Under the pieces are notes generated by a model. That model did not search any database and was not told the DNA's origin. It saw nothing but the letters and a program-made list of their open reading frames with translations. Made by a program: the position numbers and the translations under genes. Shown piece by piece: positions 1 to 56,469 of a stretch of DNA of 64,000 nt (position 1 is its first letter; each line of letters starts with the position of its first letter). The DNA lies in contig OZ004581.1 of NCBI GenBank assembly GCA_963924555.1, positions 8,409,338 to 8,473,337 on the forward strand. The letters are read 5' to 3'. The stretch comes from Crambe crambe. Taxonomy: Eukaryota; Porifera; Demospongiae; Poecilosclerida; Crambeidae.

Positions 1-232
1 GCATCAGTTATTTTAGTCCAGAACTTTCCTTCCTGGCTGCAGGCCCAGTAACTCTCAGTGGGGCGGAGGGAGAACGTGTCAGCAACCTGGGTGCTGTAGG
101 CTTCACAGGGAAGGGGCAGATTCATCAAGCCATTGAGTAGACTGCTCTTGCCCACACCTCCAGGACCAACGATCATCACACGAGCATATGCAATCTTCGT
201 TTCACCATGCCCAAGGGCATTCAAGTAATCCA
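1..232 (-). CDS. Gene A: P-loop GTPase exon (ROCO/STAND-like), partial
   Basis: The minus strand is open over the whole stretch and starts after a good acceptor (TTTGATTTTCAG). The translation runs VDYLNALGHGE, then ARVMIVGPGGVGKSSLLNGL. GPGGVGKSS is a Walker A loop, so the product should bind nucleotide, most likely GTP. The spacing of a YLNAL-like lead-in before the P-loop resembles the Ras-like/Roc GTPases of MFHAS1 and ROCO proteins, which are cytosolic signalling switches often linked to leucine-rich-repeat or Death domains. The exon needs one base from the preceding exon, and the exon ending at 285 supplies it (G). Later motifs lie beyond the window, so Roc-COR cannot be told from another STAND NTPase. 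The P-loop is certain; the subfamily is inference. Confidence 0.8.
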
Positions 233-284: not shown

Positions 285-306
285 CTTCAGTCCTTGAGGC
301 TCGAGT
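285..306 (-). CDS. Gene A: short linker exon before the GTPase exon
   Basis: This 22-base minus-strand exon lies between TTCTATTTTGAG and donor GTAATA. It reads TRASRTE plus one base and joins the P-loop exon in frame as TRASRTEVDYLNALG. It starts in phase 0, matching the MSDKK exon and the three-base units upstream. A longer version, 285-380, starting after TTCATATTTTCAG, is also open (GECMSFVHNSLVNQ...) but would need one base from the previous exon, which breaks the phase. The first three bases of that longer version (GTG at 378-380) are themselves followed by GTGAGT and may be the last microexon of array 1. Confidence 0.5.
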
Positions 307-377: not shown

Positions 378-3300
378 CACCTGAAAATATGAACACCACA
401 ACAGTGAAAGTATTATGAGATTCAGTGAGCGAGCATAGACTCTCAGGTCATGACTCAATGTATGTGTTATGATTAACAGCATGTAAGTAACAATGCAGAG
501 AGTGAGTCAGTTCAGAATAACTTACTCGCTGAAGGAATGAAATTAAGCATCAAAATACGACAGTGAAGGTACGGCAGGGTAAGAGAATAGACAGCATGTA
601 AGTAACAATGCAGAGAGTGAGTACATTCAGAAAAACTTACAGACTGAAGGAATGAAATTAAGCATCAAAATACGACAGTGAAGGTACGACAGGGTAAGAG
701 AATAGACAGCATATAAGTAACAATGAAGAGAGTGAGTATGTTCAGAATAACTTACTTTCTGAAGGAATAAAATTAAGCATCGAAATACGACGGTGAAGGT
801 ACGACAGGGTAAGAGAATAAACAGCATGTAAGTAACAATGCAGAGAGTGAGTCAGTTCTGAATAACTTACTATCTGAAGGAATGAAATTAAGCAAATATG
901 ACAGTGAAGGTACGACAGGGTAAGAGAATAGACAGCATGTAAGTAATAATGCAGAGAGTGAGTACGTTCAGAATAACTTACCCACTGAAGGAATGAAATT
1001 AAGCATCAAAATACGACAGTGAAGGTAAGACAGGGTAAGAGAATAGACAGCATGTAAGTAACAATGAAGAGAGTGAGTACGTTCAGAATAACTTACCTCC
1101 TGAAGTAATGAAATTAAACATCGAAACACAACAGTGAAGGTACGACAGGGTAAGAGAATAGACACCATGTAAGTAATAATGCAGAGAGTGAGTCAGTTCA
1201 GAATAACTTACCGACTGAAGGAATGAAATTAAGCATCAAAATATGATGGTGAAGGTACGACAGGGTAAGAGAATAGACAGCATGTAAGTAACAATGCAGA
1301 GAGTGAGTCAGTTCAGAATAACATACCGGCTTAAAGAATGAAGCATCAAAGGATGACAGTGAAGGTACGACAGGATAAGAGAATAAACAGCATGTAAGTA
1401 ACAATGCAGAGAGTGAGTCAGTTCTGAATAACTTACTATCTGAAGGAATGAAATTAAGCAAATATGACAGTGAAGGTAAGACAGGGTAAGAGAATAGACA
1501 GCATGTAAGTAACAATGAAGAGAGTGAGTACATTCAGAATAACTTACCTCCTGAAGTAATGAAATTTAACATCGAAACACGACAGTGAAGGTACGACAGG
1601 GTAAGAGAATAAACAGCATGTAAGTAACAATGCAGAGAGTGAGTCAGTTCTGAATAACTTACTATCTGAAGGAATGAAATTAAGCAAATATGACAGTGAA
1701 GGTACGACAGGGTAAGAGAATAGACAGCATGTAAGTAACAATGCAGAGAATGAGTCAGTTCAGAATAACTTACATACTAAAGGAATGAAATTAAGCATCA
1801 AATACGACAGTGAAGGTACGACAGGGTAATAGTATAGACAGCATGTAAGTAACAATGCAGAGAGTGAGTCAGTTCAGAATAACTTACTTGCTGAAGGAAT
1901 GAAATTAAGCATCAAAATACGACAGTGAAGGTACGGCAGGGTAAGAGAATAGACAGCATGTAAGTAACAATGCAGAGAGTGAGTACGTTTTGAATAACTT
2001 ACATACTGAAGGAATGAAATTGAGCATCAAAATACAACAGTGAAGGTAAGACAGGGTAGGAGAATAGACAGCATGTATGTAACAATGCAGAGAGTGAGTC
2101 AGTTCAGAATAACTTACCTCCTGAAGTAATGAAATTAAGCATCAAAATACGACAGTGAAGGTACGGCAGGGTAAGAGAATAGACAGCATGTAAGTAACAA
2201 TGCAGAGAGTGAGTCAGTTCAGAATAACTTACCCCCTGAAGGAATGAAATTAAGCATCAAAATACGACAGTGAAGGTACGACAGGGTAAGAGAATAGACA
2301 GCATGTAAGTTACAATGCAGAGAGTGAGTACGTTCAGAATAACTTGCCTCCTGAAGGAATGAAAATATGACAGTGAAGGTACGACAGGGTAAGAGAATAG
2401 ACAGCATGTAAGTAACAATGAAGAGAGTGAGTATGTTCAGAATAACTTACGTTCTGAAGGAATAAAATTAAGCATCGAAATACGACGGTGAAGGTACGAC
2501 AGGGTAAGAGAATAGACAGCATGTAAGTAACAATGCAGAAAGTGAGTCAGTTCAGAATAACTTACTTTCTGAAGGAATGAAATTAAGCATTAAAGTACGA
2601 CGACAGGGTAAGAGAATAGACAGCATGTAAGTAACAATGCAGAGAGTGAGTATGTTCAGAATAACTTACCTTCTGAAGGAATGAAATTAAGCATCAAAAT
2701 ACGACAGTGAAGGTACGACAGGGTAAGAGAATAAACAGCATGTAAGTAACAATGCAGAGAGTGAGTCAGTTCAGAATAACTTACCTTCTGAAGGAATGAA
2801 ATTAAGCATCAAAATACGACAGTGAAGGTACGACAGGGTAAGAGAATAAACAGCATGTAAGTAACAATGCAGAGAGTGAGTCAGTTCAGAATAACTTACA
2901 TACTGAAGGAATGAAATTAAGCATCAAATACGACAGTGAAGGTACGACAGGGTAAAAGAATAGACAGCATGTAAGTTACAATGCAGAGAGTGAGTACGTT
3001 CAGAATAACTTGCCTCCTGAAGGAATGAAAATATGACAGTGAAGGTATGACAGGGTAAGAGAATAGACAGCATGTAAGTAACAATGCAGAGAGTGAGTCA
3101 GTTCTGAATAGCTTACTATCTGAAGGAATGAAATTAAGCATCAAAATACAACGGTGAAGGTAAGACAGGGTAAGAGAATAGACAGCATGTAAGTAATGAA
3201 GAGAGTGAGTACGTTCAGAATAACTTACCTCCTGAAGGAATGAAATTGAGAATCAAAATACGACAGTGAAGGTAAGACAGGGTAAGAGAATAAACAGCAT

Positions 3301-4115
3301 GTAAGTAACAATGCAGAGAGTGAGTATGTTCAGAATAACTTACCGACTGAAGGAATGAAATTAAGCATCAAAATATAACAGTGAAGATACGACAGGGTAA
3401 GAGAATAGACAGCATGTAAGTAACAATGCAGAGAGTGAGTCAGTTCAGAATAACTTACATTCTAAAGGAATAAAATTAGGCATCAAAATACGACAGTGAA
3501 GATACAGCAGGGTAAGAGAATAGACAGCATGTAAGTAATAATGCAGAGAGTGAGTACGTTCAGAATAACTTACCCACTGAAGGAATGAAATTAAGCATCA
3601 AAATACGACAGTGAAGGTAAGACAGGGTAAGAGAATAGACAGCATGTAAGTAACAATGAAGAGAGTGAGTACGTTCAGAATAACTTACCTCCTGAAGTAA
3701 TGAAATTAAACATCGAAACACAACAGTGAAGGTACGACAGGGTAAGAGAATAGACACCATGTAAGTAATAATGCAGAGAGTGAGTCAGTTCAGAATAACT
3801 TACCGACTGAAGGAATGAAATTAAGCATCAAAATATGATGGTGAAGGTACGACAGGGTAAGAGAATAGACAGCATGTAAGTAATAGTGCTGAAAGTAAGT
3901 CGTCAAGAATAACTTACATCCTGAGGGATCTAGCTAAATATGTCAATGAAGGTATGACAGGGTAAGATAATGAGAAGTGATAAAACAATATGTTAATGAA
4001 GTATAAGTAATGACTTACCAGGAGAATGGGTAATAAGTTCCAGCATCAAATTGAGTGTGTATGGTGTGAAAGAACATGATGCCAAATATAATGTCAGTTT
4101 TGAATGACTCACCTC
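378..4115 (-). repeat. Array 1: 33 candidate single-codon microexons in a 115-base tandem repeat
   Basis: On the minus strand each unit has donor GTAAGTTATTC, a 112-base body, a possible branch site (GCTTAATTTC), then ATTCCTTCAG. Three bases follow before the next GTAAGT. Triplets read on the minus strand, by lowest base: 378 GTG, 526 CGA, 641 TCT, 756 AAA, 871 ATA, 982 TGG, 1097 GAG, 1212 TCG, 1327 CCG, 1437 ATA, 1548 GAG, 1663 ATA, 1774 TAT, 1888 CAA, 2003 TAT, 2118 GAG; 2233 GGG, 2348 GAG, 2451 AAC, 2566 AAA, 2670 AAG, 2785 AAG, 2900 TAT, 3014 GAG, 3117 ATA, 3229 GAG, 3344 TCG, 3459 AAT, 3574 TGG, 3689 GAG, 3804 TCG, 3918 GAT, 4113 GAG. That is 16 kinds and no stop codon. A further unit near 4018 keeps the donor but has no AG. 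The repeat is directly visible; its use as exons is inference. Confidence 0.75.
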
Positions 4116-4481: not shown

Positions 4482-4556
4482 AAAATATGGTTCAGCTCTG
4501 CTAGAAGTTGACTTCTTCTCTGTTTCTTCATTCTCTTCATCTTTTTTATCACTCAT
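4482..4556 (-). CDS. Gene A: first coding exon (MSDKK...), 25 codons
   Basis: The minus strand reads MSDKKDEENEE, then TEKKSTSSRAEPYF, and stops exactly at a GTGAGT donor in phase 0. The peptide is very acidic and lysine-rich with no signal peptide or membrane segment, so a free cytosolic N-terminus is likely. A diverged copy lies at 39174-39251 and a relic at 12468-12527, always in the same orientation. A GTCAG|GTAAGA motif just upstream (about 4582) could be the acceptor of this exon or the donor of a further upstream exon. The start is chosen because it is the only ATG in this open frame. No database family was recognised. Confidence 0.6.
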
Positions 4557-4769: not shown

Positions 4770-5292
4770 ATAGATGCTCTGCCTCTCAGGGCATAGGGCA
4801 TCTATATAATATATTGCCCTGCCTCTCAGGGCATAGGGCATCTATATAATATATATCCCTGCCTCTCAGGATATAGGGCATCTATATAATATATTGCCCT
4901 GCCTCTCAGGGCATAGGGCATCTATATAATATATTGCTCTGCCTCTCAGGGCATAGGGCATCTATATAATATATCTCAGGGCACAGGGCATCTATATAAT
5001 ATATCTCAGGGCATAGGGCATCTATATAATATATATCAGGGCATAGGGCATCTATATAATATATCTCAGGGCATAGGGCATCTATATAATATATTGCCCT
5101 GCCTCTCAGGGCATAGGGCATCTATATAATATATCTCAGGGCACAGGGCATCTATATAATATATCTCAGGGCATAGGGAATCTATATAATATATCTCAGG
5201 GCATAGGGCATCTATATAATATATCTCAGGGCATAGGGCATCTATATAATATATTGCCCTGCCTCTCAGGGCATAGGGCATCTATATATATA
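4770..5292. repeat. Minisatellite, units of about 30-47 bases
   Basis: Units follow the pattern ctcagggcataggg, catctatataatatat, with or without tgccctgcct. The same unit resumes at 6385-6413, after the composite element, so the array was split by that insertion. The repeated peptide it can encode (YYIDALCPE) is only a by-product. Confidence 0.9.
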
Positions 5293-5522
5293 TGAGCGCA
5301 AAAAATTTCTTCTAAATAAAAAGTGAAGTAGGGATAGCCTAACTGGGCTGTATAATGTGTACTGCAGCCTCGTATGAAAACAATCCCTACATTTACATTC
5401 ACTGCCATAAGGGCCGTTGTAAAAGTAGGGATTGTTTTCATACGAGGCTGCAGTACACATTATACAGCCCAGTTAGGCTATCCCTACTTCACTTTTTATT
5501 TAGAAGAAATTTTTTGCGCTCA
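5293..5522. repeat. Near-perfect inverted repeat (foldback core)
   Basis: Arms of about 100 bases match almost base for base from gagcgcaaaaaatttcttct to its reverse complement. Related cores, diverged mostly in the loop and at single bases, occur at 9863-10100, 46536-46801, 47234-47487, 50233-50491, 50939-51198, 51621-51878 and 52951-53210. Confidence 0.9.
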
Positions 5523-14611: not shown

Positions 14612-15690
14612 ACCTTTCTCCAATTCTTTTTTCAACTGATCAATTTCCTTGTCCTTTTTGGTTCAGTTGTAGCTGGGACTTATTCAGAAGCACTGCAATT
14701 ACCTGGTCACAACATGAAGAGTCAGCGGAGAAGAAGTAGCTATAGTCAGAAAAATTATTGTTAATACAGGTACATCCCAACACCTGCACATGAAGTAAAT
14801 TGTGCACTTATGGCTGACTGGGTCAGTCCAAGACCTGAATTCAAATGTGAAGTTTGACACTCTAAAGGTAAGAAGGAATGATCTTGATTGAGTATCCATC
14901 TATAGCTAAACTACACACTTCACCTTTCTCCAATTCTTTCTTTAAATGATCAATCTCCTTGTTCTTTTCGTGTAAACTCAGTTAGTGTTCCTTGTGAGTC
15001 TGTCAGCTCATACTTGTGGTAAATCAATCTGGAAAAAACAACAAAAACAAACAAACAAACAAATAACCAATGGGTAGTACAAGTAGCTAATACATGCTAT
15101 GCTGATCAGATGCTGGAGGAGGTGATACTATCTCTATCTCTTCCTGCCACAGGTCTAGCAGAATCTTGGCATTATTCTTCTTGATGAATAATAAGTGTTC
15201 TGAGATCTCCAAAGCTTCTGCCAGTTCCTTTACCTTCTCATACTTCTAAACCTCCATGGCGTTGTACATCAATTCTCATAGTGAAGGTACAATAGGAGAC
15301 AGCATGTAAGTAACAATGCAGAGAGTGAGTATGTTCATGTATCCTGAAGGAATGAAATTAAGCATCAAAATACAACAGTGAAAGAATAGACCACATGACT
15401 TGTAAGTAACAATGCAGAAAGTGAGTCGGTTCAGAATAACTTACCTACTGAAATAAAGGATCAAAATATGACAGTGAAGGTGATTCTTACGGACCAATGC
15501 AATGCCTGCCAAGAAATGACCTTCAACCTCCAACATCTTCAGCAATGGCGTGGGGTTCTTCATGCACACACAAAGGTGGAAAGCTAACAAAAGAAAGGAG
15601 TGGTGTCACCATAGAGATAACCTGAAAACTCAATCCCTCGCAGACAATCTCAGAAAATCTGGTTCGAAGTTGTGCAAGATGTTTATGATC
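14612..15690 (-). pseudogene. Remnant gene with coiled-coil exons upstream of the dead Death exon
   Basis: Minus-strand pieces with exon-like borders, in transcription order, are: HKHLAQLRTRFSEIVCEG (near 15690-15625); FHLCVCMKNPTPLLKMLEVE, ending at GTAAGA (15583-15491); KYEKVKELAEALEISEHLLF, then IKKNNAKILLDLWQEE, starting at 15245; and two related coils, KNKEIDHLKKELEKG (near 14990-14925) and KKDKEIDQLKKELEKG (near 14660-14610). The last two are paralogous, so an exon was duplicated. Phases do not connect (15491 into 15245 gives a stop) and relic microexon units lie in between, so the gene looks broken. Its end would have been the decayed Death exon at 13248. No family was recognised beyond coiled coil. 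Confidence 0.5.
15285..15480 (-). pseudogene. Two stranded microexon-type repeat units
   Basis: The 115-base unit of arrays 1 and 2 is recognisable here (gcatgtaagtaacaatgcag twice). One unit keeps both splice sites, but its triplet is TAG, a stop: TTTATTTCAG|TAG|GTAAGT. The other has triplet GAT but has lost the donor (GATACATGAA). This is the only stop triplet seen in any unit, and it is outside the arrays. Confidence 0.65.
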
Positions 15691-24867: not shown

Positions 24868-27800
24868 CTTGAATCCACAGTTTAGAGAAGTGTGACAAAT
24901 GGAGCCCTTGACATTCTGGACTTCTGCAAAAGTCTAGCTCTGGCAGAAATATTGGAGTCAAGTGAAATCCCCCACACACAACACACATGCAAGCACAACT
25001 TAGGATAAGTCCAAAAATTCATTATTTGAGCTATTATTCCATAGCACTGGCATAGGAATAGCTAGGAGGTCAGGGCTCCCCCCCCCCCCCCCCCCCCCCC
25101 CAAATTTTTAATGTATTGGCAAGCAAAATAGCACCACTATCTTGTGGTGCTGAACACCCCTAAACTGAGTCATCTTCCAATGCCAATGCATAACAGCAAT
25201 GCACTGTTAGAATTTGGTTGTTGCATATGGTCCGTTCCTTTAGCTCTATAGCTATCTACCTTAGTCTCGTGTGGGCCAGACTCTGAGTCTGGTCAAATTT
25301 TTAACCAAAAATCCATGAAAATCGTGGATATGCACAGAATACATAGGGTTATGACTCAGTCGAAATAGTGCAAGCAAAAAGATGGCTCAAAATTTACTTC
25401 AAACTATTCAAGAAGGTGGACATTATAGGTTTTGCTATTCAGTTCTAAAAGTCAAACAAATAGAAGCAGTAAGCTCCATCATGAAAGGACAAGATGTCTC
25501 CATGTCAGTAGCATGTTGTTTTTTATTATCTGTGCGCCAAGGCGCGCACTCAAATTTGATGATGTACCTATGATGCGTGCTGCCTACTAAGCAGAATAAA
25601 GTTGGTCTTAGTCAGGCCCATGCGAGACTAATCTACCTAGCAAATTATAGTCAAGGACAACTACAGTTGGCAACAATGAAGTACAACAATTCATATTTGT
25701 ATTGAGATTTGAGCTAAATGTGTTTTCCCACCATGGCTACATGAAATGCAGGGTGCACTATCTTAGATAATAAAATGGGCAGGGGTTTCACTAGTTATCG
25801 TACCTGGATCAATGTTGATGGTAAAAAATTTATTTTTCAAAGTGCCAATTATATCCACAGAGTATTCAAGTGGCTGTACTTTCTGTCCCTCCTTTATCCA
25901 TTTTGCCACTAATTCACAATGTGGTACTACTTGACTTTCTGGTTTATGAAGATCCACTTGTTTCTTATCAATCTACAAGATAACCAGTGTGGCTAATACT
26001 AGCTAGCTAATGTGTATACATGCATTTATTACCTCTGGTAATACTGTGGGGAAAATCTTCCAATTTTCTTGTACAGTAACACCTTCTCTCTTAATGTTCA
26101 AGTTGATTTTGCTGTCTTTGAAGTAAAATAGTTGATTTGGACCAGTTGCAGCATTTTTAGATGAATACTGTTTCCAGACAGTCTATAATTATATTATAAC
26201 AAATTAGTATAAACAGACTGGTCATGATAATTATTATGATATAAAAGCTACATGTAGACAGTTACTATCGAAGTTCTTAAATCAGCAAAGAGTGATAAGC
26301 TAATTCAACCTGTGTCAATATTAGCACCTATGAACCTCAATTTTACACACCTTGAATATGATTCTATGATTAACTCACATTTACGTGTGCATTATCACTC
26401 CATGTAACAGCAAAGTGTATATCTTTGTTGGTATGCTTTCCCATATAAAATACACCAAACCAATATACACGTTCATCAGATCCGTTTTCTACTACTGCTA
26501 TTTCACTAAATTGATTTAAAGTTATCATTCCATAGGTGGTGTGTTCATTAAAGGTCCCTCCATGGATGATATTAAAGGAAATTGGAAGATCCTCTTTGGT
26601 ATTTGGTTGTAGGTCTGTGGTATGTGAAGCCCTAGCAAAGGAAAGGCGGAAGCTGTTCTTACGTGGAGCACAGTGCTGAATTTCTAGACTCAATTGAACT
26701 TGAAATTTACACTTTGGGTTAGATCGAAACCAAAAAACAGGACTGACCAGTTCAGTATTTACTGGGAATACATAGTGGCCAGAAAGTGAAGCAATGATAG
26801 TAATAGTGCAGCTGCTCAAGTTGCTAGGTAGGGATCCTGATGAAATATATAGTCTCAATCCATATCCTTTCCAATCAAAGAATTGAGAAGAATTAGTCAC
26901 CTGGATTTCTGTAACTTGTATTCCTGTACCAAATGAATCAGATATGCATGATACTGTGTTCACTTGCATATGGAATAGAGCATTATGTTATGATGTGGTC
27001 TTATAGAGCCACATAAAAGATAGGTTGGTATAATGCTCGACATTTAATTATGATATTAATAACTATACCTTTATAAACAGTAAGGACAGCAACAGTGCTA
27101 TTTATAGAATGTCCACCACCAGAGATAGTACAAGAATACTCTCCACTTGATTCCACAGATACGTTGTAAATTCTCAAAGTAGCAAGATTGGAACCTTCAA
27201 TATTGATCTTGTTTGATAATGGTGTGCCATTCTTATACCACTTGTAGACCAAGTCCATTCCATCTGCTCTCACTTTAAAACTCACATCACTTCTTTCGGC
27301 AATACTTATGTTTGATGGTTGCTTCTTAATTAGTGGTTGCTTCTTATTTAGAGGAGTGACTACAATGAATGTTGTTACAAAAGTCAGTGAATGCATGCAC
27401 ACAAGAATATAATAAATTATTCTGGTGTATGAATGTATAGCCAGATATAAATCCTATACTAAAGGACTGCATTCAGTGCTTCAAAGGACATAATATTATG
27501 TTCCAACCAATCTTCTTATTTTTGTTTAACTATAGTAGGCACTGCAGGGGTGGGTGGCTGTGGGGGAAGGGGTCTCCACTGTTAGAAGCCTGATATCTTG
27601 AATGTGTAGTCATGAGTCACATCCTTATGTGTAGACAGCTTCGTAGCATGCTGTGCTGAAGGAACACTGCCAGCTTTCTGTAGCAACCTGCTTTCCCTTC
27701 CTTAAGCAGGCAGGATCTACTATATATAAGCACTATAGAGAGGCGATGTTAGGGCCAGTCCATCATCTCGAGGAGGAATGAGCACATTTCAAGAATGCAA

Positions 27801-28283
27801 AAAAAAGCCTAAAGCCATACACTATAAAAACGAAATGGTGAACATCACTACATTGTAGTGATGTTCACCATTTCATTTTTACAGCGTAGCAGTAGGACTG
27901 CTCTATGGTGTTTGTTAAATGCCTGCCCTATAGTAACTGCTCTATAGTCTATAGTGCCTTCTATTGCTTGCTCTAATGGTAGCATACTCTGTGCCTCCTC
28001 TATAGTGGTAGCATACTCTGTGCCTCCTCTATAGTGGTAGCATACTCTGTGCCTCCTCTATAGTGGTAGCATACTCTATAGTGCCTCCTCTATAGTGGTA
28101 GCATACTCTGTGCCTCCTCTATAGTGGTAGCATACTCTATAGCTAGTGCCTTAATGATTGAGTGTGAACAATACATGCATCACTGCATGGAGAACATGCA
28201 CACATGATCATATATATTATCTTACCAAACATCAATATAATAACAATGATGGCTAGGAGGGCAATAACTGTTGCAGTGCAATA
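21253..28283 (-). CDS. Gene B body: transmembrane - Ig - ZU5 - Death protein
   Basis: Exons in order: 28226-28283 (phase 0 start; YCTATVIALLAIIVIILMF, a membrane helix); 27069-27359 (Ig-like fold, VYKWYKNGTPL and SSGEYSCTISGGG); 26379-26962 (ZU5: YGLRLYISSGSLPS, then HYVFPVNTELVSPVFWF; an alternative start 9 bases later also fits); 26033-26182 (50 codons); 25804-25972; and 21253-21578 (Death domain: SFGILLLKDEIGSHVKAIQE, then WKSLVKVLNDIGLKTLAEEI, stop). All junction phases agree. Together about 520 residues. The order differs from UNC5 receptors because the membrane helix precedes the Ig. The Ig lacks the B-strand cysteine (VSFKV), so it need not be extracellular; Ig, ZU5 and Death could all be cytoplasmic. 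Array 2 opens directly into the membrane exon. Confidence 0.75.
22598..24249. mobile_element. Element with long inverted repeats and TTAA target duplication
   Basis: It starts AGGGTAACTGAAATGAAA and ends TTTCATTTCAGTTACCCT. TTAA stands directly outside at 22594-22597 and 24250-24253. The inverted repeats run at least 300 bases and include tgatgtcatagagggaattc. TTAA duplication is the mark of piggyBac-type transposition; no transposase frame remains. Nested inside are hairpin family H copy 2 (23100-23239) and a perfect palindrome (aggtttactaagtgcc and its complement, about 23592-23625). It lies in the 4.2 kb last intron of gene B. Confidence 0.8.
23100..23239. repeat. Hairpin element, family H, copy 2
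   Basis: It begins gttagacaac and ends gttgcctaac, with a GC-rich centre gcgacccgagcgcagcgagg. Its arms are better matched than those of the 7698 copy. Confidence 0.8.
24552..24690. repeat. Hairpin element, family H, copy 3
   Basis: It begins ctagacactttgacc and ends ctcagtgtctat, with the same ladder of arms and centre as copies 1 and 2 (tagtgacctcactgtgcttg). Confidence 0.75.
24812..24866. repeat. CA microsatellite with GC-alternating start
   Basis: A gcgcgcgtgcgcgc stretch runs directly into (CA)n and ends cgcacc. Alternating purine-pyrimidine DNA of this kind can adopt Z form. It lies inside the gene B intron. Confidence 0.9.
25262..25630 (+). mobile_element. Mutator-like element carrying a RecQ-like helicase fragment
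   Basis: The termini TAGTCTCGTGTGGGCC and GGCCCATGCGAGACTA are near reverse complements. The bases atctacct repeat on both sides (25254-25261 and 25631-25638). Inside, on the plus strand at 25382-25520, is LLQTIQEGGHYRFCYSVLKV, then KQIEAVSSIMKGQDVSMSV. This resembles the segment just before helicase motif I in RecQ-like enzymes (…LK-x-Q-x-EAV…G-DV…); the motif I that would follow is lost. A related helicase piece sits in the element at 51931-52415. Confidence 0.7.
27818..27885. repeat. Hairpin, arms about 32 bases
   Basis: gaaatggtgaacatcactac pairs with gtagtgatgttcaccatttc around almost no loop, between the Ig exon and the membrane exon of gene B. Confidence 0.85.
27990..28145. repeat. 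Minisatellite, 30-base unit
   Basis: About five copies of tagcatactctgtgcctcct followed by ctatagtgg lie in the intron just below the membrane exon of gene B. Confidence 0.9.
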
Positions 28284-28365: not shown

Positions 28366-31300
28366 TAGCTGAAGGAATGAAATTAAAGAATCGAATACGA
28401 CAGTGAAGGTATAATAGGGTAAGAGAATAGACAGCATGTAAGTAACCATGCAGAGAGTGAGTATGTTCAGAATAAATTACCGACTGAAGAAATCATCAAA
28501 ATACGTCAGTGAAGGTATGACAGAGTAAGAGAATAGACAGCATGTAAGTAACCATGCAGAGAGTGAGTATGTTCAGAATAACTTACCGACTGAAGGAATG
28601 AAATTAAAGCATCGAATACGACAGTGAAGGTAAAAAAGGGTAAGAGAATAGACAGCATGTAAGTAACCATGCAGAGAGTGAGTACGTTCAGAATAACTTA
28701 CTGACTGAAGGAATGAAATTAAAGCATCGAATATGACAGTGAAGGTACAACAGGGTAAGACAATAGACAGCATGTAAGTAACCATGCAGAGAGTGAGTAC
28801 GTTCAGAATAACTTACCGACTGAAGAAAATAAGTCAGTGAAGGTACGACAGAGTAAGAGAATAGACAGCATGTAAGTAACAATGTAAAGAGTGAGTCAGT
28901 TCAGAATAACTTACTGGCTAAAGGAATGAAATTAAGCATCAAAATACGACAGTGAAGGTACAACAGGGTAAGAGAATAGACAGCATGTAAGTAACAATGC
29001 AGAGTTCAGAGTAACTTACCTCCTGAAGGAATGAAATTAAGCATCAAAATACGACAGTTAAGGTACAACAGGGTAAGAGAATAGACAGCATGTAAGTAAC
29101 CATGCAGAGAGTGAGTCTGTTCAGAATAACTTACCTCCTGAAGGAATGAAATTAAGCATCAAAATACGACAGTGAAGGTACAACAGGGTAAGAGAATAGA
29201 CAGCATGTAAGTAACAATGCAGAGTTCAGAGTAACTTACCTCCTGAAGGAATGAAATTAAGCATCAAAATACGACAGTTAAGGTACAACAGGGTAAGAGA
29301 ATAGACAGCATGTAAGTAACAATGCAGAGAGTGAGTCTGTTCAGAATAACTTACTTCCTGAAGGAATGAAATTAAGCATCAAAATACGACAGTGAAGGTA
29401 CAACAGGGTAAGAGAGTAGACAGCATGTAAGTAACCATGCAGAGAGTGAGTACGTACAGAATAACTTACCGACTGAAGGAATGAAATTAAAGCATCGAAT
29501 ACGACAGTGAAGGTACAACAGGGTAAGAGAATAGACAGCATGTAAGTAACAATGCAGAGAGTGAGTCAGTTCAGAATAACTTACATACTGAAGGAATGAA
29601 ATTAAGCATCAAATATGACAGTGAAGGTACGACAGGGTAAAAGTATAGACAGCATGTAAGTAACAATGCAGAGAGTGAGTATTTTCAGAATAACTTACCC
29701 GCTGAAGGAATGAAATTAAGCATCAAAATATGACAGTGAAGGTACAACAGGGTAAGAGAATAGACAGCATGTAAGTAACCATGCAGAGAGTGAGTACGTT
29801 CAGAATAACTTACCGACTGAAGGAATGAAATTAAAGCATCGAATACGACAGTGAAGGTACAACAGGGTAAGAGAATAGACAGCATGTAAGTAACCATGCA
29901 GAGAGTGAGTACGTTCAGAATAACTTACCGACTGAAGGAATGAAATTAAAGCATCAAATACGACAGTGAAGGTACAACAGGGTAAGAGAATAGACAGCAT
30001 GTAAGTAACCATGCAGAGAGTGAGTACGTTCAGAATAACTTACCGACTGAAGGAATGAAATTAAAGCATCAAATACGACAGTGAAGGTACAACAGGGTAA
30101 GAAAATAGACAGCATGTAAGTAACAATGCAGAGAGTGGGTATTTTCAGAATAACTTACATACTGAAGGAATGAAATTAAGCATCAAATATGACAGTGAAG
30201 GTACGACAGGGTAAGAGAATAGACAGCATGTAAGTAACCATGCAGAGAGTGAGTACGTACAGAATAACTTACCGACTGAAGGAATGACATTAAAGCATCG
30301 AATACGACAGTGAAGGTACAACAGGGTAAGAGAATAGACAGCATGTAAGTAACAATGCAGAGAGTGAGTACGTTCAGAATAACTTACCGACTGAAGGAAT
30401 GAAATTAAAGCATCAAATACGACAGTGAAGGTACAACAGGGTAAGAAAATAGACAGCATGTAAGTAACAATGCAGAGAGTGGGTATTTTCAGAATAACTT
30501 ACATACTGAAGGAATGAAATTAAGCATCAAATATGACAGTGAAGGTACGACAGGGTAAGAGAATAGACAGCATGTAAGTAACCATGCAGAGAGTGAGTAC
30601 GTACAGAATAACTTACCGACTGAAGGAATGACATTAAAGCATCGAATACGACAGTGAAGGTACAACAGGGTAAGAGAATAGACAGCATGTAAGTAACAAT
30701 GCAGAGAGTGAGTACGTTCAGAATAACTTACAGACTGAAGGAATGAAATTAAAGCATCGAATACGACAGTGAAGGTACAATAGGGTAAGAGAATAGACAG
30801 CATGTAAGTAACAATGCAGAGAGTGGGTATTTTCAGAATAACTTACCCGCTGAAGGAATGAAATTAAGCATCAAAATATGACAGTGAAGGTACAACAGGG
30901 TAAGAGAATAGACAGCATGTAAGTAACCATGCAGAGAGTGAGTACATACAGAATAACTTACCGACTGAAGGAATGAAATTAAAGCATCGAATACGACAGT
31001 GAAGGTACAACAGGGTAAGAGAATAGACAGCATGTAAGTAACAATGCAGAGAGTGAGTATGTTCAGGATAACTTACCGGCTAAAGGAATGAAATTAAGCA
31101 TCAAAATATAACAGTGAAGGTAAGACAGGGTAAGAGAATAGACAGCATGTAAGTAACAAAGTCAGTTCAGAATAACTTACCTCCTGAAGGAATAAAATTA
31201 AGCATCAAAATACGACAGTGAAGGTACAACAGGGTAAGAGAATAGACAGCATGTAATTGACAATGCAGAGAGTGAGTCAGTTCAGAATAACTTACCCGCT

Positions 31301-34300
31301 GAAGGAATTAAATTAAGCATCAAAAGACGATAGTGAAGGTATGGCAGGGTAAGAGAATAGACAGCATGTAAGTAACAATGCAGAGAGTGAGTCAGTTCAG
31401 AATAACTTACATACTGAAGGAATGAAATTAAGCATCAAATACGACAGTAAAGGTACGACAGGATAAGAGAATAGACAGCATGTAAGTAACAATGCAGAGA
31501 GCGAGTCAGTTCAGAATAACTTACCCGCTGAAGGAATTAAATTAAGCATCAAAAGACGACAGTGAAGGTACGACAGGGTAAGAGTATAGACAGCATGTAA
31601 GTAAGAATGCAGAGAGTGAGTCAGTTCAGGATAACTTACCGGCTAAAGGAATGAAATTAAGCATCAAAATATAACAGTAAAGATATGACAGGGTAAGAGA
31701 ATAGACAGCACGTAAGTAACAATGCAGAGAGTGAGTCAGTTCAGAATAATTTACATACTGAAGGAATGAAATTAAGCATTAAATACAACAGTGAAGGTAC
31801 GACAGGGTAAGAGTATAGACAGCATGTAAGTAACAATGTAGAGAGTGAGTATTTTCAGAATAACTTACCGACTGAAGAAATGAAATTAAGCATCAAAATA
31901 TAACATGTGAAGATATGACAGGGTAAGAGAATAGACAGTATGTAAGTAACAATGCAAAGAGTGAGTCAGTTCAGGATAACTTACCGACTGAAGAAATGAA
32001 ATTAAGCATCAAAATATAACATGTGAAGATACGACAGGGTAAGAGAATAGACAGTATGTAAGTAACAATGCAAAGAGTGAGTCAGTTCAGGATAACTTAC
32101 CGGCTAAAGGAATGAAAATTAAGCATCAAAATATAACAGTGAAGATACGACAGGGTAAGAGAATAGACAGCATGTAAGTAACAATGCAGAGAGTGAGTCA
32201 GTTCAGAATAACTTACCAACTGAAGGAATGAAATTAAGCATCAAAATATAACAGTGAAGATACGACAGGGTAAAAGAATAGACAGCATGTAAGTAACAAT
32301 GCAGAGAGTGAGTACGTTCAGAATAACTTACGAACTGAAGGAATGAAATTAAAACATCGAATACGACAGTGAAGGTACAACAGGGTAAGAGAATAGACAG
32401 CATGTAAGTAACCATGCAGAGAGTGAGTCTGTTCAGAATAACTTACCTCCTGAAGGAATGAAATTAAGCATCAAAATATAACAGTGAAGGTATGACAGAG
32501 TAAGAGAATAGACAGCATGTAAGTAACAATGCAGAGTTCAGAGTAACTTACCCCTTGAAGGAATGAAATTAAGCATCAAAATACGACAGTTAAGGTACAA
32601 CAGGGTAAGAGAATAGACAGCATGTAAGTAACCATGCAGAGAGTGAGTCTGTTCAGAATAACTTACCGACTGAAGGAATGAAATTAAAGAATCGAATACG
32701 ACAGTGAAGGTATAACAGGGTAAGAAAATAGACAGCATGTAAGTAACAATGCAGAGAGTGGGTATTTTCAGAATAACTTACCCGCTGAAGGAATGAAATT
32801 AAAGCATCGAATACGACAGTGAAGGTACGATAGAGTAAGAGAATAGACAGCATGTAAGTAACCATGCAGAGAGTGAGTGCGTTCAGAATAACTTACCGAC
32901 TGAAGGAATGAAATTAAAGCATCGAATACGACAGTGAAGGTACAACAGGGTAAGAGAATAGACAGCATGTAAGTAACCATGCAGAGAGTGAGTACATTCA
33001 GAATAACTTACCAACTGAAGGAATGAAATTAAAGCATTGAATACGACAGTGAAGATACAACAGGGTAAGAGAATAGACAGCATGTAAGTAACCATGCAGA
33101 GAGTAAGTATGTTCAGAATAACTTACTGACTGAAGGAATGAAATTAAAGCATCGAATGCGACAGTGAAGGTACAACAGGGTAAGAGAATAGACAGCATGT
33201 AAGTAACAATGCAGAGAGTGAGTACGCTCAGAATAACTTACCGACTGAAGAAAATACGTCAGTGAAGGTATGACAGAGTAAGAGAATAGACAGCATGTAA
33301 GTAACAATGTAAAGAGTGAGTCAGTTCAGAATAACTTACTGGCTAAAGGAATGAAATTAAGCATCAAAATACGACAGTGAAGGTACAATAGGGTAAGAGA
33401 ATAGACAGCATGTAAGTAACCATGCAGAGAGTGAGTACGTTCAGAATAACTTACCCGCTGAAGGAATGAAATTAAGCATCAAAATATGACAGTGAAGGTA
33501 CAACAGGGTAAGAGAATAGACAGCATGTAAGTAACCATGCAGAGAGTGAGTACGTACAGAATAACTTACCAACTGAAGGAATGAAATTAAAGCATCGAAT
33601 ACAACATTGAAGGTACAACAGGGTAAGAGAATAGGCAGCATGTAAGTAACCATGCAGAGAGTGAGTACGTTCAGAATAACTTACTGACTGAAGGAATGAA
33701 ATTAAAGCATCGAATACGACAGTGAAGGTACAACAGGGTAAAAGAATAGACAGCATGTAAGTAACCATGCAGAGAGTGAGTACATTCAGAATAACTTACC
33801 AACTGAAGGAATGAAATTAAAGCATCGAATACGACATTGAAGGTACAACAGGGTAAGAGAATAGGCAGCATGTAAGTAACCATGCAGAGAGTGAGTACGT
33901 TCAGAATAACTTACTGACTGAAGGAATGAAATTAAAGCATCAAATACGACAGTGAAGGTACAACAGGGTAAGAGAATAGACAGCATGTAAGTAACCATGC
34001 AGAGAGTGAGTACGCTCAGAATAACTTACCGACTGAAGAAAATACGTCAGTGAAGGTACGACAGAGTAAAAGAATAGACAGCATGTAAGTAACAATGTAA
34101 AGAGTGAGTCAGTTCAGAATAACTTACTGGCTAAAGGAATGAAATTAAGCATCAAAATACGACGGTGAAGGTACGACAGGGTAAGAGAATAGACAGCATG
34201 TAAGTAACCATGCAGAGAGTGAGTACGCTCAGAATAACTTACTGACTGAAGAAAATACGTCAGTGAAGGTACGACAGAGTAAGAGAATAGACAGCATGTA

Positions 34301-37300
34301 AGTAACAATGTAAAGAGTGAGTCAGTTCAGAATAACTTACTGGCTAAAGGAATGAAATTAAGCATCAAAATACGACAGTGAAGGTACAACAGGGTAAGAG
34401 AATAGACAGCATGTAAGTAACAATGCAGAGTTCAGAGTAACTTACCCCCTGAAAGAATGAAATTAAGCATCAAAATACGACAGTGAAGGTACAACAGGGT
34501 AAGAGAATAGACAGCATGTAAGTAACCATGCAGAGAGTGAGTACGTTCAGAATAACTTACCCGCTGAAGGAATGAAATTAAGCATCAAAATATGACAGTG
34601 AAGGTACAACAGGGTAAGAGAATAGACAGCATGTAAGTAACCATGCAGAGAGTGAGTACGTACAGAATAACTTACCAACTGAAGGAATGAAATTAAAGCA
34701 TCGAATACAACATTGAAGGTACAACAGGGTAAGAGAATAGGCAGCATGTAAGTAACCATGCAGAGAGTGAGTACGTTCAGAATAACTTACTGACTGAAGG
34801 AATGAAATTAAAGCATCGAATACGACAGTGAAGGTACAACAGGGTAAGAGAATAGACAGCATGTAAGTAACCATGCAGAGAGTGAGTACATTCAGAATAA
34901 CTTACCAACTGAAGGAATGAAATTAAAGCATCGAATACGACATTGAAGGTACAACAGGGTAAGAGAATAGGCAGCATGTAAGTAACCATGCAGAGAGTGA
35001 GTACGTTCAGAATAACTTACATACTGAAGGAATGAAATTAAAGCATCGAATACGACAGTGAAGGTACAACAGGGTAAGAGAATAGACAGCATGTAAGTAA
35101 CCATGCAGAGAGTGAGTACGCTCAGAATAACTTACCGACTGAAGAAAATACGTCAGTGAAGGTACGACAGAGTAAGAGAATAGACAGCATGTAAGTAACA
35201 ATGTAAAGAGTGAGTCAGTTCAGAATAACTTACTGGCTAAAGGAATGAAATTAAGCATCAAAATACGACAGTGAAGGTACAACAGGGTAAGAGAATAGAC
35301 AGCATGTAAGTAACCATGCAGAGAGTGAGTACGTTCAGAATAACTTACCGACTGAAGGAATGAAATTAAGCATCAAAATACGACAGTGAAGGTACAACAG
35401 GGTAAGAGAGTAGACAGCATGTAAGTAACCATGCAGAGAGTGAGTACGTTCAGAATAACTTACCGACTGAAGAAATCATCAAAATACATCAGTGAAGGTA
35501 CGACAGAGTAAGAGAATAGACAGCATGTAAGTAACAATGCAGAGAGTGAGTATGTTCAGGATAACTTACCGGCTAAAGGAATGAAATTAAGCATCAAAAT
35601 ATAACAGTGAAGGTAAGACAGGGTAAGAGAATAGACAGCATGTAAGTAACAAAGTCAGTTCAGAATAACTTACCTCCTGAAGGAATAAAATTAAGCATCA
35701 AAATACGACAGTGAAGGTATAACAGGGTAAGAGAATAGACAGCATGTAAGTAACCATGCAGAGAGTGAGTCAGTTCAGAATAACTTACCAACTGAAGGAA
35801 TGAAATTAAGCATCAAAATACGACAGTGAAGGTACAACAGGGTAAGAGAATAGACAGCATGTAATTGACAATGCAGAGAGTGAGTCAGTTCAGAATAACT
35901 TACCCGCTGAAGGAATTAAATTAAGCATCAAAAGACGACAGTGAAGGTATGGCAGGGTAAGAGAATAGACAGCATGTAAGTAACAATGCAGAGAGTGAGT
36001 CAGTTCAGAATAACTTACATACTGAAGGAATGAAATTAAGCATCAAATACGACAGTAAAGGTACGACAGGGTAAGAGTATAGACAGCATGTAAGTAACAA
36101 TGCAGAGAGTGAGTATTTTCAGAATAACTTACTTTCTGAAGGAATAAAATTAAGTATCGAATACGACAGTGAAGGTACAACAGGGTAAGAGAATAGACAG
36201 CATGTAATTGACAATGCAGAGAGTGAGTCAGTTCAGAATAACTTACCAACTGAAGGAATGAAATTAAAACATCGAATACGACAGTGAAGGTACGACAGGG
36301 TAAGAGTATAGACAGCATGTAAGTAACAATGCAGAGAGTGAGTCAGTTCAGAATAACTTACATACTGAAGGAATGAAATTAAGCATCAAATACGACAGTG
36401 AAGGTACGACAGGGTAAGAGTATAGACAGCATGTAAGTAACAATGCAGAGAGTGAGTATTTTCAGAATAACTTACCCACTGAAGGAATGAAATTAAGCAT
36501 CAAAATATGACAGTGAAGGTACAACAGGGTAAGAGAATAGACAGCATGTAAGTAACCATGCAGAGAGTGAGTACGTACAGAATAACTTACCGACTGAAGG
36601 AATGAAATTAAAGCATCGAATACGACAGTGAAGGTACAACAGGGTAAGAGAATAGACAGCATGTAAGTAACCATGCAGAGAGTGAGTACGTTCAGAATAA
36701 CTTACCGACTGAAGGAATGAAATTAAAGCATCGAATACGACAGTGAAGGTACAATAGGGTAAGAGAATAGACAGCATGTAAGTAACCATGCAGAGAGTGA
36801 GTATGTTCAGAATAACTTACCGACTGAAGAAATCATCAAAATACGTCAGTGAAGGTATGACAGAGTAAGAGAATAGACAGCATGTAAGTAACAATGCAGA
36901 GAGTGAGTACGTTCAGAATAACTTACCAACTGAAGGAATGACATTAAAGCATCGAATACGACAGTGAAGGTACAACAGGGTAAGAGAATAGACAGCATGT
37001 AAGTAACCATGCAGAGAGTGAGTACTTTCAGAATAACTTACCTCCTGAAGGAATGAAATTAAGCATCGAATACGACAGTGAAGGTACAACAGGGTAAGAG
37101 AATAGACAGCATGTAAGTAACCATGCAGAGAGTGAGTACGTTCAGAATAACTTACCGACTGAAGGAATGAAATTAAAGCATCGAATACGACAGTGAAGGT
37201 ACAATAGGGTAAGAGAATAGACAGCATGTAAGTAACCATGCAGAGAGTGAGTACGTTCAGAATAACTTACTGACTGAAGGAATGAAATTAAAGCATCGAA

Positions 37301-38859
37301 TACGACAGTGAAGGTACAACAGGGTAAGAGAATAGACAGCATGTAAGTAACCATGCAGAGAGTGAGTATGTTCAGGATAACTTACCGACTGAAGAAATCA
37401 TCAAAATACGTCAGTGAAGGTATGACAGAGTAAAAGAATAGACAGCATGTAAGTAACCATGCAGAGAGTGAGTACGTTCAGAATAACTTACCAACTGAAG
37501 GAATGACATTAAAGCATCGAATACGACAGTGAAGGTACGACAGGGTAAGAGAATAGACAGCATGTAAGTAACCATGCAGAGAGTGAGTACGTTCAGAATA
37601 ACTTACTGACTGAAGGAATGAAATTAAAGCATCGAATACGACAGTGAAGGTACAACAGGGTAAGAGAATAGACAGCATGTAAGTAACCATGTAGAGAGTG
37701 AGTACGTTCAGAATAACTTACCGACTGAAGAAAATACGTCAGTGAAGGTACGACAGAGTAAGAGAATAGACAACATGTAAGTAACAATGTAAAGAGTGAG
37801 TCAGTTCAGAATAACTTACTGGCTAAAGGAATGAAATTAAGCATCAAAATACGACAGTGAAGGTACAACAGGGTAAGAGAATAGACAGCATGTAAGTAAC
37901 CATGCAGAGAGTGAGTCTGTTCAGAATAACTTACCTCCTGAAGGAATGAAATTAAGCATCAAAATATGACAGTGAAGGTACAACAGGGTAAGAGAGTAGA
38001 CAGCATGTAAGTAACCATGCAGAGAGTGAGTACGTTCAGAATAACTTACCGACTGAAGAAATCATCAAAATACGTCGGTGAAGGTACGACAGAGTAAGAG
38101 AATAGACAGCATGTAAGTAACAATGCAGAGAGTGAGTCAGTTCAGAATAACTTACACGCTGAAGGAATAAATTAAGCATCAGTAACAGTATGACAGGGTA
38201 AGAGAATAGACAGCATGTGAGTAACAATGTAGAGTGTGAGTTGGTTCAGAATAACTTACCAGCTGAAGGTATCAAAATACGACAGGGTAAGAGAATAGAC
38301 AGCATGTAAGTAACAATGCAGAGAGTGAGTTTATTCAGAATAACTTACCCGCTGAAGGAATGAAATTAAGCATCAAAATACGACAATGAAGGTATGACAG
38401 GGTAAGAGAATAGACAGCATGTGAGTAACAATGTAGAGTGTGAGTTAGTTCAGAATAACTTACCGGCTGAAGGCATCAAAATACGACAGGGTAAGAGGAT
38501 AGACAGCATGTAAGTAACAATGCAGAGAGTGAGTTTATTCAGAATAACTTACCAACTGAAGGAATGAAATTAAGCATCAAAATATGACAGTGAAGGTACG
38601 ACAGGGTAAGAGAATAGACAGCATGTAAGTAATAGTGCTGAAAGTTGTCAAGAATAACTCACATCCTGAAGGATCTAAATATGTCAATGAAGGTATGACA
38701 GGGTAAGATAATGAGAAGTGATAAAACAATATGTTAATGAAGTATAAGTAATGACTTACCAGGAGAAGGGGTAATAAGTTCCAACATCAAATTGAGTGTG
38801 TATGGTGTGAAAGAACATGATGCCAAATATAATAATGTCAGTCTTGAATGACTCACCTC
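28366..38859 (-). repeat. Array 2: 94 candidate single-codon microexons
   Basis: The unit, orientation and splice motifs are those of array 1. Selected triplets (lowest base, minus strand): 28366 CTA, 28481 TCG, 28702 TCA, 28915 CCA, 29020 GAG, 29355 GAA, 29585 TAT, 29699 CGG, 30732 TCT, 31077 CCG, 32217 TTG, 32332 TTC, 34446 GGG, 36133 AAA, 36476 TGG, 38156 CGT, 38260 CTG, 38663 GAT, 38857 GAG. By my count there are 18 kinds: about 27 TCG, 8 TCA, 11 TTG, 9 GAG, 9 CGG, 8 TAT, 6 CCA, 5 CCG and a few others, with no stop codon. The unit at 32552 has a changed acceptor (TTCAAG) and may be dead. A donor without acceptor occurs near 38758, as at 4018 in array 1. If all were joined they would add about 94 residues, over a third serine. 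Confidence 0.75.
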
Positions 38860-39173: not shown

Positions 39174-39251
39174 TCAAAAATATGGTTCACCTCTGCTAGA
39201 AGTAGCCTTCTTCTCTGCTTCTTCATTCTCTTCACCTTTTTTATCACTCAT
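39174..39251 (-). CDS. Gene B: MSDKK first exon, splice donor lost
   Basis: The minus strand reads MSDKKGEENEE, then AEKKATSSRGEPYF, then TGA. It is a clear copy of the gene A exon at 4482-4556. One base (the G of GTGAGT) is missing, so ATATTTT|GTGAGT became ATATTTTTGAGT; this removes the donor and creates a stop. A new weak donor-like GTGAAC has appeared inside (AGCAGAG|GTGAAC), but it would change the phase. So gene B may be transcribed from another first exon, be inactive in this allele, or carry a sequencing error here. Confidence 0.6.
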   Translation of the reverse strand: MSDKKGEENEEAEKKATSSRGEPYF

Positions 39252-39314: not shown

Positions 39315-39473
39315 TATACAGTGGATTGCAGGTTGCTTGACACTAGTACTTCAGCCAGCAAGGTCACATGGACCAATCAGATTCATGCTGACATCATTGC
39401 CTGCAAATCTGATTGGTCCATGTGACCTCCGTGGCTGAAGTACTAGTGTCAAGCAACCTGCAATCCACTGTAA
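39315..39473. repeat. Hairpin element just upstream of the gene B 5' module
   Basis: Arms of about 63 bases (acagtggattgcaggttgct to its complement) lie around catgctgacatcattgcctg. The similarity between the gene A and gene B 5' regions ends close to here (about 39288 versus 4588). Confidence 0.85.
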
Positions 39474-43500: not shown

Positions 43501-44694
43501 TGGGAGGAGGAACCAGTGACCACCAGTGAATGGAATGCTAATAGCAGCTTCAGCGACCAAGTGAATGGAATGCTAATGAAGAGCACCAACCCACATGCAC
43601 TGGTCTTACATCTCTTGTGGATCTCTCTCCACGTCTCTCTGGGCTCCTACTCCTGCTTCTGGCAGAGGAAGGGCCACCTGGACACACCCTCATGTGCTCT
43701 CTCAGAAGGGCAACCCTGCACTTTTGGCCACAATCAAGGCACCTTTCTTCCACCTATTATAAATAGCAATCTGAACTGGAGTGTTTTCTAAATGTTGGAT
43801 AAAGAAACCTCAAAGAAAGTGGGCTGGGTCTATACGGCATCAATTGAATTAAATTAAGCATGCACCCCCCCCCCCCCCCCCCCCCCCCCCTTACAGCTAT
43901 AGGGGAGACTCTGATCCACTCACCCCTTCCACTTCCTCATCCAGGGCCTCCTCCTCTAGGCTTAGATCCCTCTGTATTGGCCTGATATATACTCTTCCAT
44001 TGCCCACCCTGCGCTTGAGCAACCTCGGACTGCTAGATATCCTCGACCCAATCAGCACCAAGTCCCTCGACTGCGGCTTGCAGCGGAGCAGCTCAAACCC
44101 TCCTCCACTCTCCAGCTTGGGGTAGGCCGCCAACAACAGCTGGTGAAACGCTTGTGGGCTGCAGTCAACATCTGGTACTGTCACTGTCTTCTCACCCAGC
44201 CCCGCCTCCTCTAAGATCATCTTTCCAGACTGGCTAGTGGGAACCCTGTCTGCACTGGTGCTGCTTAGACACACAAACTTGTGGTCCCAGCTGGTAGCTG
44301 GCGCTGCTTTCTTTTTCTTCTTCCAATTGAAGAGGCTGCTTTGCTCTTCTCTCACTCCTCGTAGGGATGACATGGCATTGTGGTATGCATCTTCGAACCC
44401 TAGGAGGAGAGATTATTTAGCTATTGTTCACCCCTTTTCTGGCTACAGGCCCGACGACTATACAGCCTTACTTGCTCCAGGTGACAGAGAGCGCAGGTTA
44501 ACGGCAGCCCTGCAAGGAGTCGTTGGCAAGTCTGCAGCTCTCCCGGGAACTGCATCCATTCTCTCAGTAGTGCCTGGTGCTTCGCTGGAGCTCGACCTCG
44601 CACGTCCATCGCCGCTCATAGAAGAGGACACTAGCTCTAGGGCCCTCCGGAGCACCATTCTGTCTCCCTCCGACAACTGTCCACCACCAGACAT
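40572..44694 (-). CDS. HECT-type E3 ubiquitin ligase (G2E3-like), complete, 11 exons
   Basis: Exons in order: 44472-44694, 43924-44399, 43610-43753, 43008-43043, 42409-42545, 42165-42351, 41935-42078, 41609-41782, 41129-41414, 40954-41061, 40572-40825. All phases fit, giving 722 residues. Exon 3 holds a C2HC zinc finger (RCLDCGQKCRVALLREHMRV plus C), like ubiquitin-binding UBZ fingers. Exons 6-11 form the HECT domain: FVGKEAVDTGGPTREFWRLF in the N-lobe, then DLMIFFSGTKKEPPLGF and LATSSTCLPNLRIP in the C-lobe. The cysteine in SSTC matches the catalytic thioester cysteine, and the C-terminus is NGFGSV. The lobe order is that of G2E3-like HECT ligases, which are numerous in sponges and cnidarians. 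Start: ATG at 44694, before the first donor. Its 5' part is duplicated in inverted orientation at 62383. Confidence 0.9.
43867..43890. repeat. Homopolymer C run in a HECT intron
   Basis: A run of C lies between exons 2 and 3 of the HECT gene. The same run appears as G at 63188-63211 in the right arm. Confidence 0.9.

Positions 44695-54777: not shown

Positions 54778-56469
<1,692 letters not shown>

Follow-up and report, generated by a model that had tools for sequence, protein, structure and literature searches.

The tandem units on the minus strand of the window (the whole stretch of 64,000 nucleotides analyzed here, C1:8409338-8473337) very probably carry genuine spliceosomal exons of one codon each, which would place an ordered string of residues before a further exon, in five of nine arrays that of a Roc GTPase. 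An initial annotation had proposed that a GTPase gene is preceded by exons of one codon. This proposal is strongly supported, since reading frame, stop codons, exon length, splice sites and paralogues all agree with it. We infer that splicing takes place and that it usually includes most of the units, in their order.

Both counts given earlier for the minus-strand array A were reproduced: it has 33 units, with triplets from 4113-4115 down to 378-380, and exactly 16 kinds of triplet. In arrays A and B, the unit reads ...TTCATTCCTTCAG, NNN, GTAAGTTATTCTG... on the minus strand, with a period of approximately 115 bp, and the tandem repeat shows higher-order periods. The 112-base intron body described before was found in 19 of the 31 inter-triplet gaps measured in array A; the others have 100 to 111 nt, and one has 192 nt. 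An AG, three bases and a donor are present in all 33 units, but the array also contains a CTG unit (4019-4021) that lacks the AG and is not counted. This unit and another CTG unit at 38760-38762 have the donor without the AG and were rejected as exons. In two GAG units (2348-2350 and 3014-3016), GT is replaced by a GC donor (GCAAGT), which is still usable as a splice site.

The exons flanking array A both require phase 0, the upstream ATG exon at its end and the 22-nt exon at its start. A direct join of array A to the exon at 1-232 was rejected, since this exon begins in phase 1 and would be out of frame; the intervening 22-nt exon restores the frame (Table 1). The predicted product of gene A, MSDKKDEENEETEKKSTSSRAEPYF-EDSEWNSEIEYKKKNEGEYQYIEIPSEWIKSRV-TRASRTE-VDYLNALGHGETKIAYARVMIVGPGGVGKSS..., is stop-free up to the window edge. 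Furthermore, whichever codons are selected from array A or array B, the reading frame is kept and no stop arises, and skipping all of array A is also in frame. The last microexon of array A is GTG in the 8306k and 8341k paralogues as well, and ATG in the 8260k paralogue. Immediately upstream of the first coding exon of gene A lies a minisatellite with a unit of ~30-40 bp (4775-5293). Long palindromes with the look of MITE-type hairpins were seen by eye at 5290-5520, 27800-27890 and 39320-39470, two of the three within ~1 kb upstream of the first coding exons of the arrays.

Table 1. Predicted features of the window and the W-rich arrays (window positions unless C1 is given)
Feature	Position	Strand	Remarks
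Array A, 33 predicted one-codon exons (EDSEWNSEIEYKKKNEGEYQYIEIPSEWIKSRV)	378..4115	-	near-identical introns of ~112 nt between them
Upstream coding exon of gene A, MSDKKDEENEETEKKSTSSRAEPYF	4482..4556	-	phase-0 end at GTGAGT
Last microexon of array A, GTG (Val)	378..380	-	flanked by TTTCAG and GTGAGT
22-nt exon (TRASRTE + 1 nt)	285..306	-	entered in phase 0, left in phase 1
Start of Roc GTPase exon (VDYLNALGHGETKIAYARVMIVGPGGVGKSS...)	1..232	-	continues past the window edge
Array B, 95 units like those of array A, including the CTG unit without AG	28366..38859	-	no stop triplet
Upstream exon of array B	39177..39251	-	donor TTGAGT, not GTGAGT; coordinates by eye
Hydrophobic exon after array B (YCTATVIALLAIIVIILMF + 1 nt)	28226..28283	-	open in phase 0
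Frame with Ig domain downstream of array B, putatively of the same gene	27004..27453	-	PF07679
Decayed relict, two units outside any array	15305..15478	-	one unit is TAG (15445-15447)
W-rich duplicate arrays, rich in TGG (Trp)	C1:8229165-8234628 and 8376956-8383181	-	44 and 51 units, one TGA each

The donor of the exon upstream of array B is probably broken. Array B and the two W-rich arrays (8229k and 8377k) are the three arrays, out of nine, that lead to a hydrophobic exon open in phase 0 and not to a GTPase; for the two W-rich arrays, this exon was read by eye. Just upstream of the hydrophobic exon that follows array B, no in-frame ATG was seen. Pfam analysis of the frames downstream of array B, which putatively form one gene, gave Ig and ZU5 domains above the cut-off and two Death domains, one above and one below it. 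Elsewhere in the window, two pairs of near-identical frames are arranged in inverted orientation (43384-44722 with 62355-63692, and 54709-56077 with 60539-61907). One pair contains an integrase core (rva_4, PF24764), as in a large mobile element or an inverted duplication.

The unit is abundant in the genome searched (143 Mb, 119 contigs). The exact core TTCAG-NNN-GTAAGTTATTCTG (pattern TTCAGNNNGTAAGTTATTCTG) was found 2,802 times (196 forward, 2,606 reverse), and with up to one mismatch 3,710 times (274 forward, 3,436 reverse). The reversed control pattern gave no match genome-wide, either exactly or with up to one mismatch. Among the matches listed, cores were located at 6.6-6.7 and 8.19-9.33 Mb of C1 and at 5.88 and 7.13-7.28 Mb of C11. 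The nine arrays of C1:8200001-8400000 and the window, all on the minus strand and one of them (8200k) cut at the edge of the stretch, were used for comparison. Seven of them were counted and form runs of 32-131 acceptor-bearing units.

Six of the nine arrays have an upstream exon of the type MSDKKGEENEEAEKKATSSRAEPYF with a phase-0 end at GTGAGT. In the W-rich arrays, the first ATG is lost, and a second in-frame ATG with a phase-0 GTGAGT donor is kept; these arrays are perhaps decaying, or they may encode a membrane segment. A genome search with the upstream-exon region returned at least 37 matches, some of them partial, all on C1 and none on C11. Downstream tails were read for eight of the nine arrays, all except 8200k. 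In 8260k, 8281k, 8306k, 8341k and array A, the codons are followed first by a 22-nt exon, which changes the phase from 0 to 1, and next by ..VDYLNALG..., the start of the Roc GTPase. The 22-nt exon was thus seen, by eye, in five of the five GTPase-type tails read, and a genome search with such a tail gave at least 22 matches, three of them partial. According to Pfam, a 686-aa frame of the 8260k paralogue carries Roc and COR-A, with Death in a separate frame. PF08477 and PF16095 were above the cut-off in this paralogue and in a gene on C11, while gene A runs off the window. Two of the arrays lie inside a segmental duplication of ~44 kb (C1:8200001-8244414 and C1:8347809-8391258, roughly 94-99% identical), which could be real or a haplotype artefact of the assembly.

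One constraint on the units is exon length. Across the nine arrays, acceptor and donor were separated by 3 nt in 638 of 638 loose matches with a spacer of 0-6 nt and in 415 of 415 exact matches with a spacer of 0-30 nt, and 58 more loose matches sit at spacer 7 or 20-30. The spacer and frame counts comprise units with both an AG and a GT or GC, minus one shifted duplicate match per W-rich array. The reading frame points in the same direction: the concatenated triplets of seven arrays contain no stop in phase 0 (0/557), as opposed to 15/550 in one of the remaining phases and 29/550 in the other. These totals leave out the W-rich arrays with their single TGA each. Phases 1 and 2 were rejected for the codon string on account of their stops.

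Genome-wide, TAA and TGA are absent from the 2,802 exact cores and TAG occurs five times, along with 94 TCA or TTA triplets and 666 of the form TNG. All five TAG cores were identified by their flanks as copies of the relict fragment in the window. By parsimony with the triplet in the tree, the 651 units analyzed have undergone 174 codon changes. About 8% of one-step changes in the seven arrays lead to a stop, giving ~14 expected stops, or about 5 (2.7%) for TAA and TGA alone, all of these being rough figures. One was seen, the TGA common to the W-rich pair.

The splice sites are in line with this. Canonical ends (GT or GC at the start, AG at the end) are present in 637 of the 651 introns and one is missing in 14, and an additional AG within 15 nt before the last one occurs in 6/651. 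A triplet that itself ends in AG would create a second, competing acceptor adjoining the first. In the seven arrays, CAG was observed 0 times versus 30 expected, AAG 14 versus 16.5 and GAG 82 versus 33, where the expectation assumes independent positions and ignores the relatedness of units. This pattern is the reverse of the ranking of acceptor strength. Among the exact cores of the whole genome, CAG accounts for 12 of 2,802. Since many units are recent copies of one another, all these counts overstate their independence.

A protein-database search with the predicted spliced product gave ten matches, all of which begin at the GTPase exon and none of which represents the spliced form; a second such search gave no match. 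The ten proteins resemble frame-type predictions, so this pattern says little about splicing.

The initial annotation had contrasted variable triplets with a nearly constant intron. Diversity at the triplet positions was 0.51-0.69 in an alignment of 125 units from arrays A and B, while about two thirds of the 112 intron columns were below 0.1. The triplets are indeed more variable, but constancy does not extend to the whole intron, some columns of which reach 0.4-0.65. When the triplet was left out of the tree, its positions required 162, 174 and 124 parsimony steps (651 units, nine arrays); leaving out intron columns instead, three at a time (111 columns), gave a mean of 15.4 and a maximum of 123. 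With the triplet included, the steps were 83, 90 and 66, versus an intron mean of 9.9 and a maximum of 56. Intron columns 16-18 of the nine C1 arrays form a second variable spot (left-out steps 49, 123 and 93).

As a tree-free control, we compared units with identical introns: 22 of the 154 groups differed in the triplet, whereas the 37 intron blocks gave a mean of 2.1 and a maximum of 8. Both this and the tree analysis used 651 of 659 units, those with an intron of 85-125 nt. In the identical-intron groups, 29 of the 41 type pairs differ by two or three bases. The one-base differences comprise 11 nonsynonymous and 1 synonymous, too few to decide between diversifying selection and mere tolerance.

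Three comparisons of duplicates were made. Between the 8200k and 8348k arrays, introns differ by 0.5% and triplets by at most 9.5%, an upper figure because the pairing of the final four mismatched units is probably wrong and some differences are gained or lost units; order is kept, apart from the gain or loss of single codons. Within the 8307-8317k array, one half differs from the other by 3.0% in introns and by 33% in triplets. The W-rich pair has no triplet excess, since its triplets are identical (0/144) at an intron difference of 0.19%; it shows the gain or loss of seven units.

We read these data as introns that are kept alike by unequal exchange or conversion and a codon string that is preserved or diversified as protein. 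Neighboring triplets would differ because they encode successive residues, and introns would be alike because of unit turnover. The pattern had been called the reverse of normal conservation; variable triplets between like introns are indeed what is observed, but they are better read as successive residues combined with this turnover. We conclude that the differences between units mainly reflect the residues of the N-terminal segment, whose sequence is reshuffled codon by codon.

A second family is located on C11, of which 5.5 kb were read, with exon junctions placed by eye. Next to the gene, the predicted one-codon exons spell A G Y A V G Y F G L F F, and two more, ATA and CGT, lie at the far end. 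After the codons comes a 37-nt exon leading from phase 0 to phase 1, and then a Roc-COR GTPase that starts with ANYREALKSGVVSVAYARIVHLGAGGVGKSS. This GTPase is identical to the C1 Roc-COR protein at 227/533 positions (43%) of the best aligned block. The C11 consensus intron, made from 11 introns of one array, agrees with that of C1 in 17 of the first 18 columns and 21 of the last 25, but in only 40/69 of the middle, which fits the ends being what matters. At C11:7149300-7151600, 12 of 12 codons end in T and vary in positions 1 and 2, while the commonest third base on C1 is G.

If the units are one-codon exons, minus-strand transcription would start with the ATG exon and pass through the array, and each intron of ~112 nt would be removed separately, one codon staying behind per intron. 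After the conserved N-terminal peptide, the mRNA would encode a string of 33 residues in gene A and of up to 131 in the arrays counted. In five of the nine arrays, the string would be followed by the Roc GTPase exon; the single paralogue analyzed for this has Roc-COR plus Death. Against the one-codon-exon reading, 3-nt exons flanked by introns of ~112 nt would demand much of the splicing machinery. The TGA in each W-rich array, the probably broken donor upstream of array B, the three arrays that lead to a hydrophobic exon, the 14 introns lacking a canonical end and the database searches that gave no spliced form count against it as well. Stepwise splicing is probable, in which the upstream exon grows by joining to one acceptor after another, and the codon behind each acceptor directly abuts a new donor. 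In 5'-to-3' order, this would act as a recursive-splicing-like ratchet that deposits one codon per step. Since the growing exon would always abut the next GTAAGT, a free 3-nt exon would never need to be defined. Gain, loss, exchange or skipping of a unit would leave the frame intact, so the segment could diverge fast between paralogues while turnover keeps the introns alike.

How many units a transcript uses is the point at which ordered inclusion differs from the diversified cassette envisaged in the initial annotation, with which it otherwise overlaps. In such a cassette, the exons are real, each transcript combines some of them, and a very large number of proteins arise from one gene per individual. 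The in-frame, stop-free state of every subset of A and B codons, with or without any from array A, suits this proposal. The strong, near-identical splice sites of the units can be taken either way: they make each unit available, but they provide no basis for a choice among them. A local fold of the consensus intron RNA was no better than shuffles (z = +1.19), and thus no local selector structure was seen. Moreover, the order and identity of codons are largely kept in segmental duplicates, which suits ordered inclusion. We therefore consider combinatorial use somewhat unlikely, although it deserves to be kept in mind.

Very unlikely, in our opinion, is a recursive-splicing ladder, in which AG-NNN-GT points aid the removal of a long intron from which no codon is normally kept. 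An acceptor immediately followed by a donor does resemble the ratchet points described in PMC8605326. However, such points require neither an exact three-base spacer nor the avoidance of stops, and here it is the arrays themselves that make the intron long.

A noncoding satellite in a large intron, with incidental splice-like motifs spread by tandem amplification, would account for the 115-bp repeat with its higher-order periods and for database searches without a spliced form. It would not account for 2,797 stop-free exact cores outside the relict, for a single open phase that fits both flanking exons, for the scarcity of CAG and the fixed size of 3 nt, or for intron ends that are conserved on C11 while the middle has diverged. 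We regard it as highly improbable. Finally, a mutational hotspot or an introner-like insertion footprint with a 3-bp target duplication, with no role in protein, hardly merits consideration despite the frequent two- and three-base differences between units with identical introns, because a hotspot should also yield stops and CAG, and a target duplication should leave equal triplets on either side of the element.

With the units taken as one-codon exons, the segment is likely a variable part of an immune-type signaling protein, used for interaction or recognition, as suggested by the Death domain and the expansion of the family. More speculatively, there is some chance that the ROCO-Death family contains a codon-shuffling recognition system. 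In it, homogenized introns would be handles for recombination, single residues would be inserted, deleted or copied across positions and genes, and splicing would sample ordered subsets of codons, creating an individual- and cell-specific hypervariable segment for immunity or self-recognition.

If confirmed, exon size would be at its logical minimum over long coding stretches, with an intron after every codon, and spliceosomes would have to handle tens to more than 100 consecutive 3-nt exons. The arrays would then offer a natural setting in which to test exon definition against intron definition, and they would exemplify protein evolution by gain, loss and exchange of whole codons. With such a design, single residues could be added, dropped or exchanged, by evolution or by splicing, with the reading frame intact. 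One-codon segments will probably escape short-read aligners and gene predictors, and other genomes may therefore hold them unnoticed.

Several known systems share individual features with the arrays. Dscam has long, mutually exclusive exons and selector RNA structures. Dscam-type arrays likewise consist of tandemly duplicated exons with variable content; here, the exons are one codon long and the consensus intron fold is unexceptional at z +1.19. Introner elements are many near-identical introns in one genome. Our introns are near-identical too, but they stand in tandem in gene families, at codon boundaries, and are not dispersed.

Isolated 3-nt microexons are known from mouse Ncam and Drosophila troponin T, as stated in PMC8042270. 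There a one-codon exon is likewise spliced, but singly, while here long arrays occur. In the ratchet points of Drosophila, AG and GT are directly joined, according to PMC8605326. The arrays share the immediate succession of acceptor and donor. However, exactly three bases lie between them (no match at spacer 0, 638 at spacer 3) and are apparently kept in the protein, and up to 132 units follow in a row.

Closest are the micro-exon genes, characterized by very small symmetrical exons in PMC4350168. Their definition, as given in PMC7653826, asks for exons shorter than 70 nt whose length is a multiple of three, for seven or more exons of which half are micro-exons, and for a run of four. Predicted from DNA, the exons of all 638 loose and 415 exact matches measure 3 nt, and runs of 32-131 units are found in seven arrays; the required exon number and share of micro-exons are probably present as well. 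Both the flatworm micro-exon genes, as far as these sources describe them, and the arrays have consecutive tiny exons in multiples of three that can be skipped in frame. In our arrays, by contrast, each exon is one codon, the tandem intron-exon unit recurs thousands of times nearly unchanged, and the gene belongs to the Roc-COR type. No description of arrays of one-codon exons was found in openly licensed PubMed Central papers by title and the opening of the abstract. We regard these arrays as an extreme form of micro-exon gene, with a real possibility that they deserve a class of their own. Different from micro-exon genes are the uniform one-codon size, the tandem unit structure, the scale and the type of gene.
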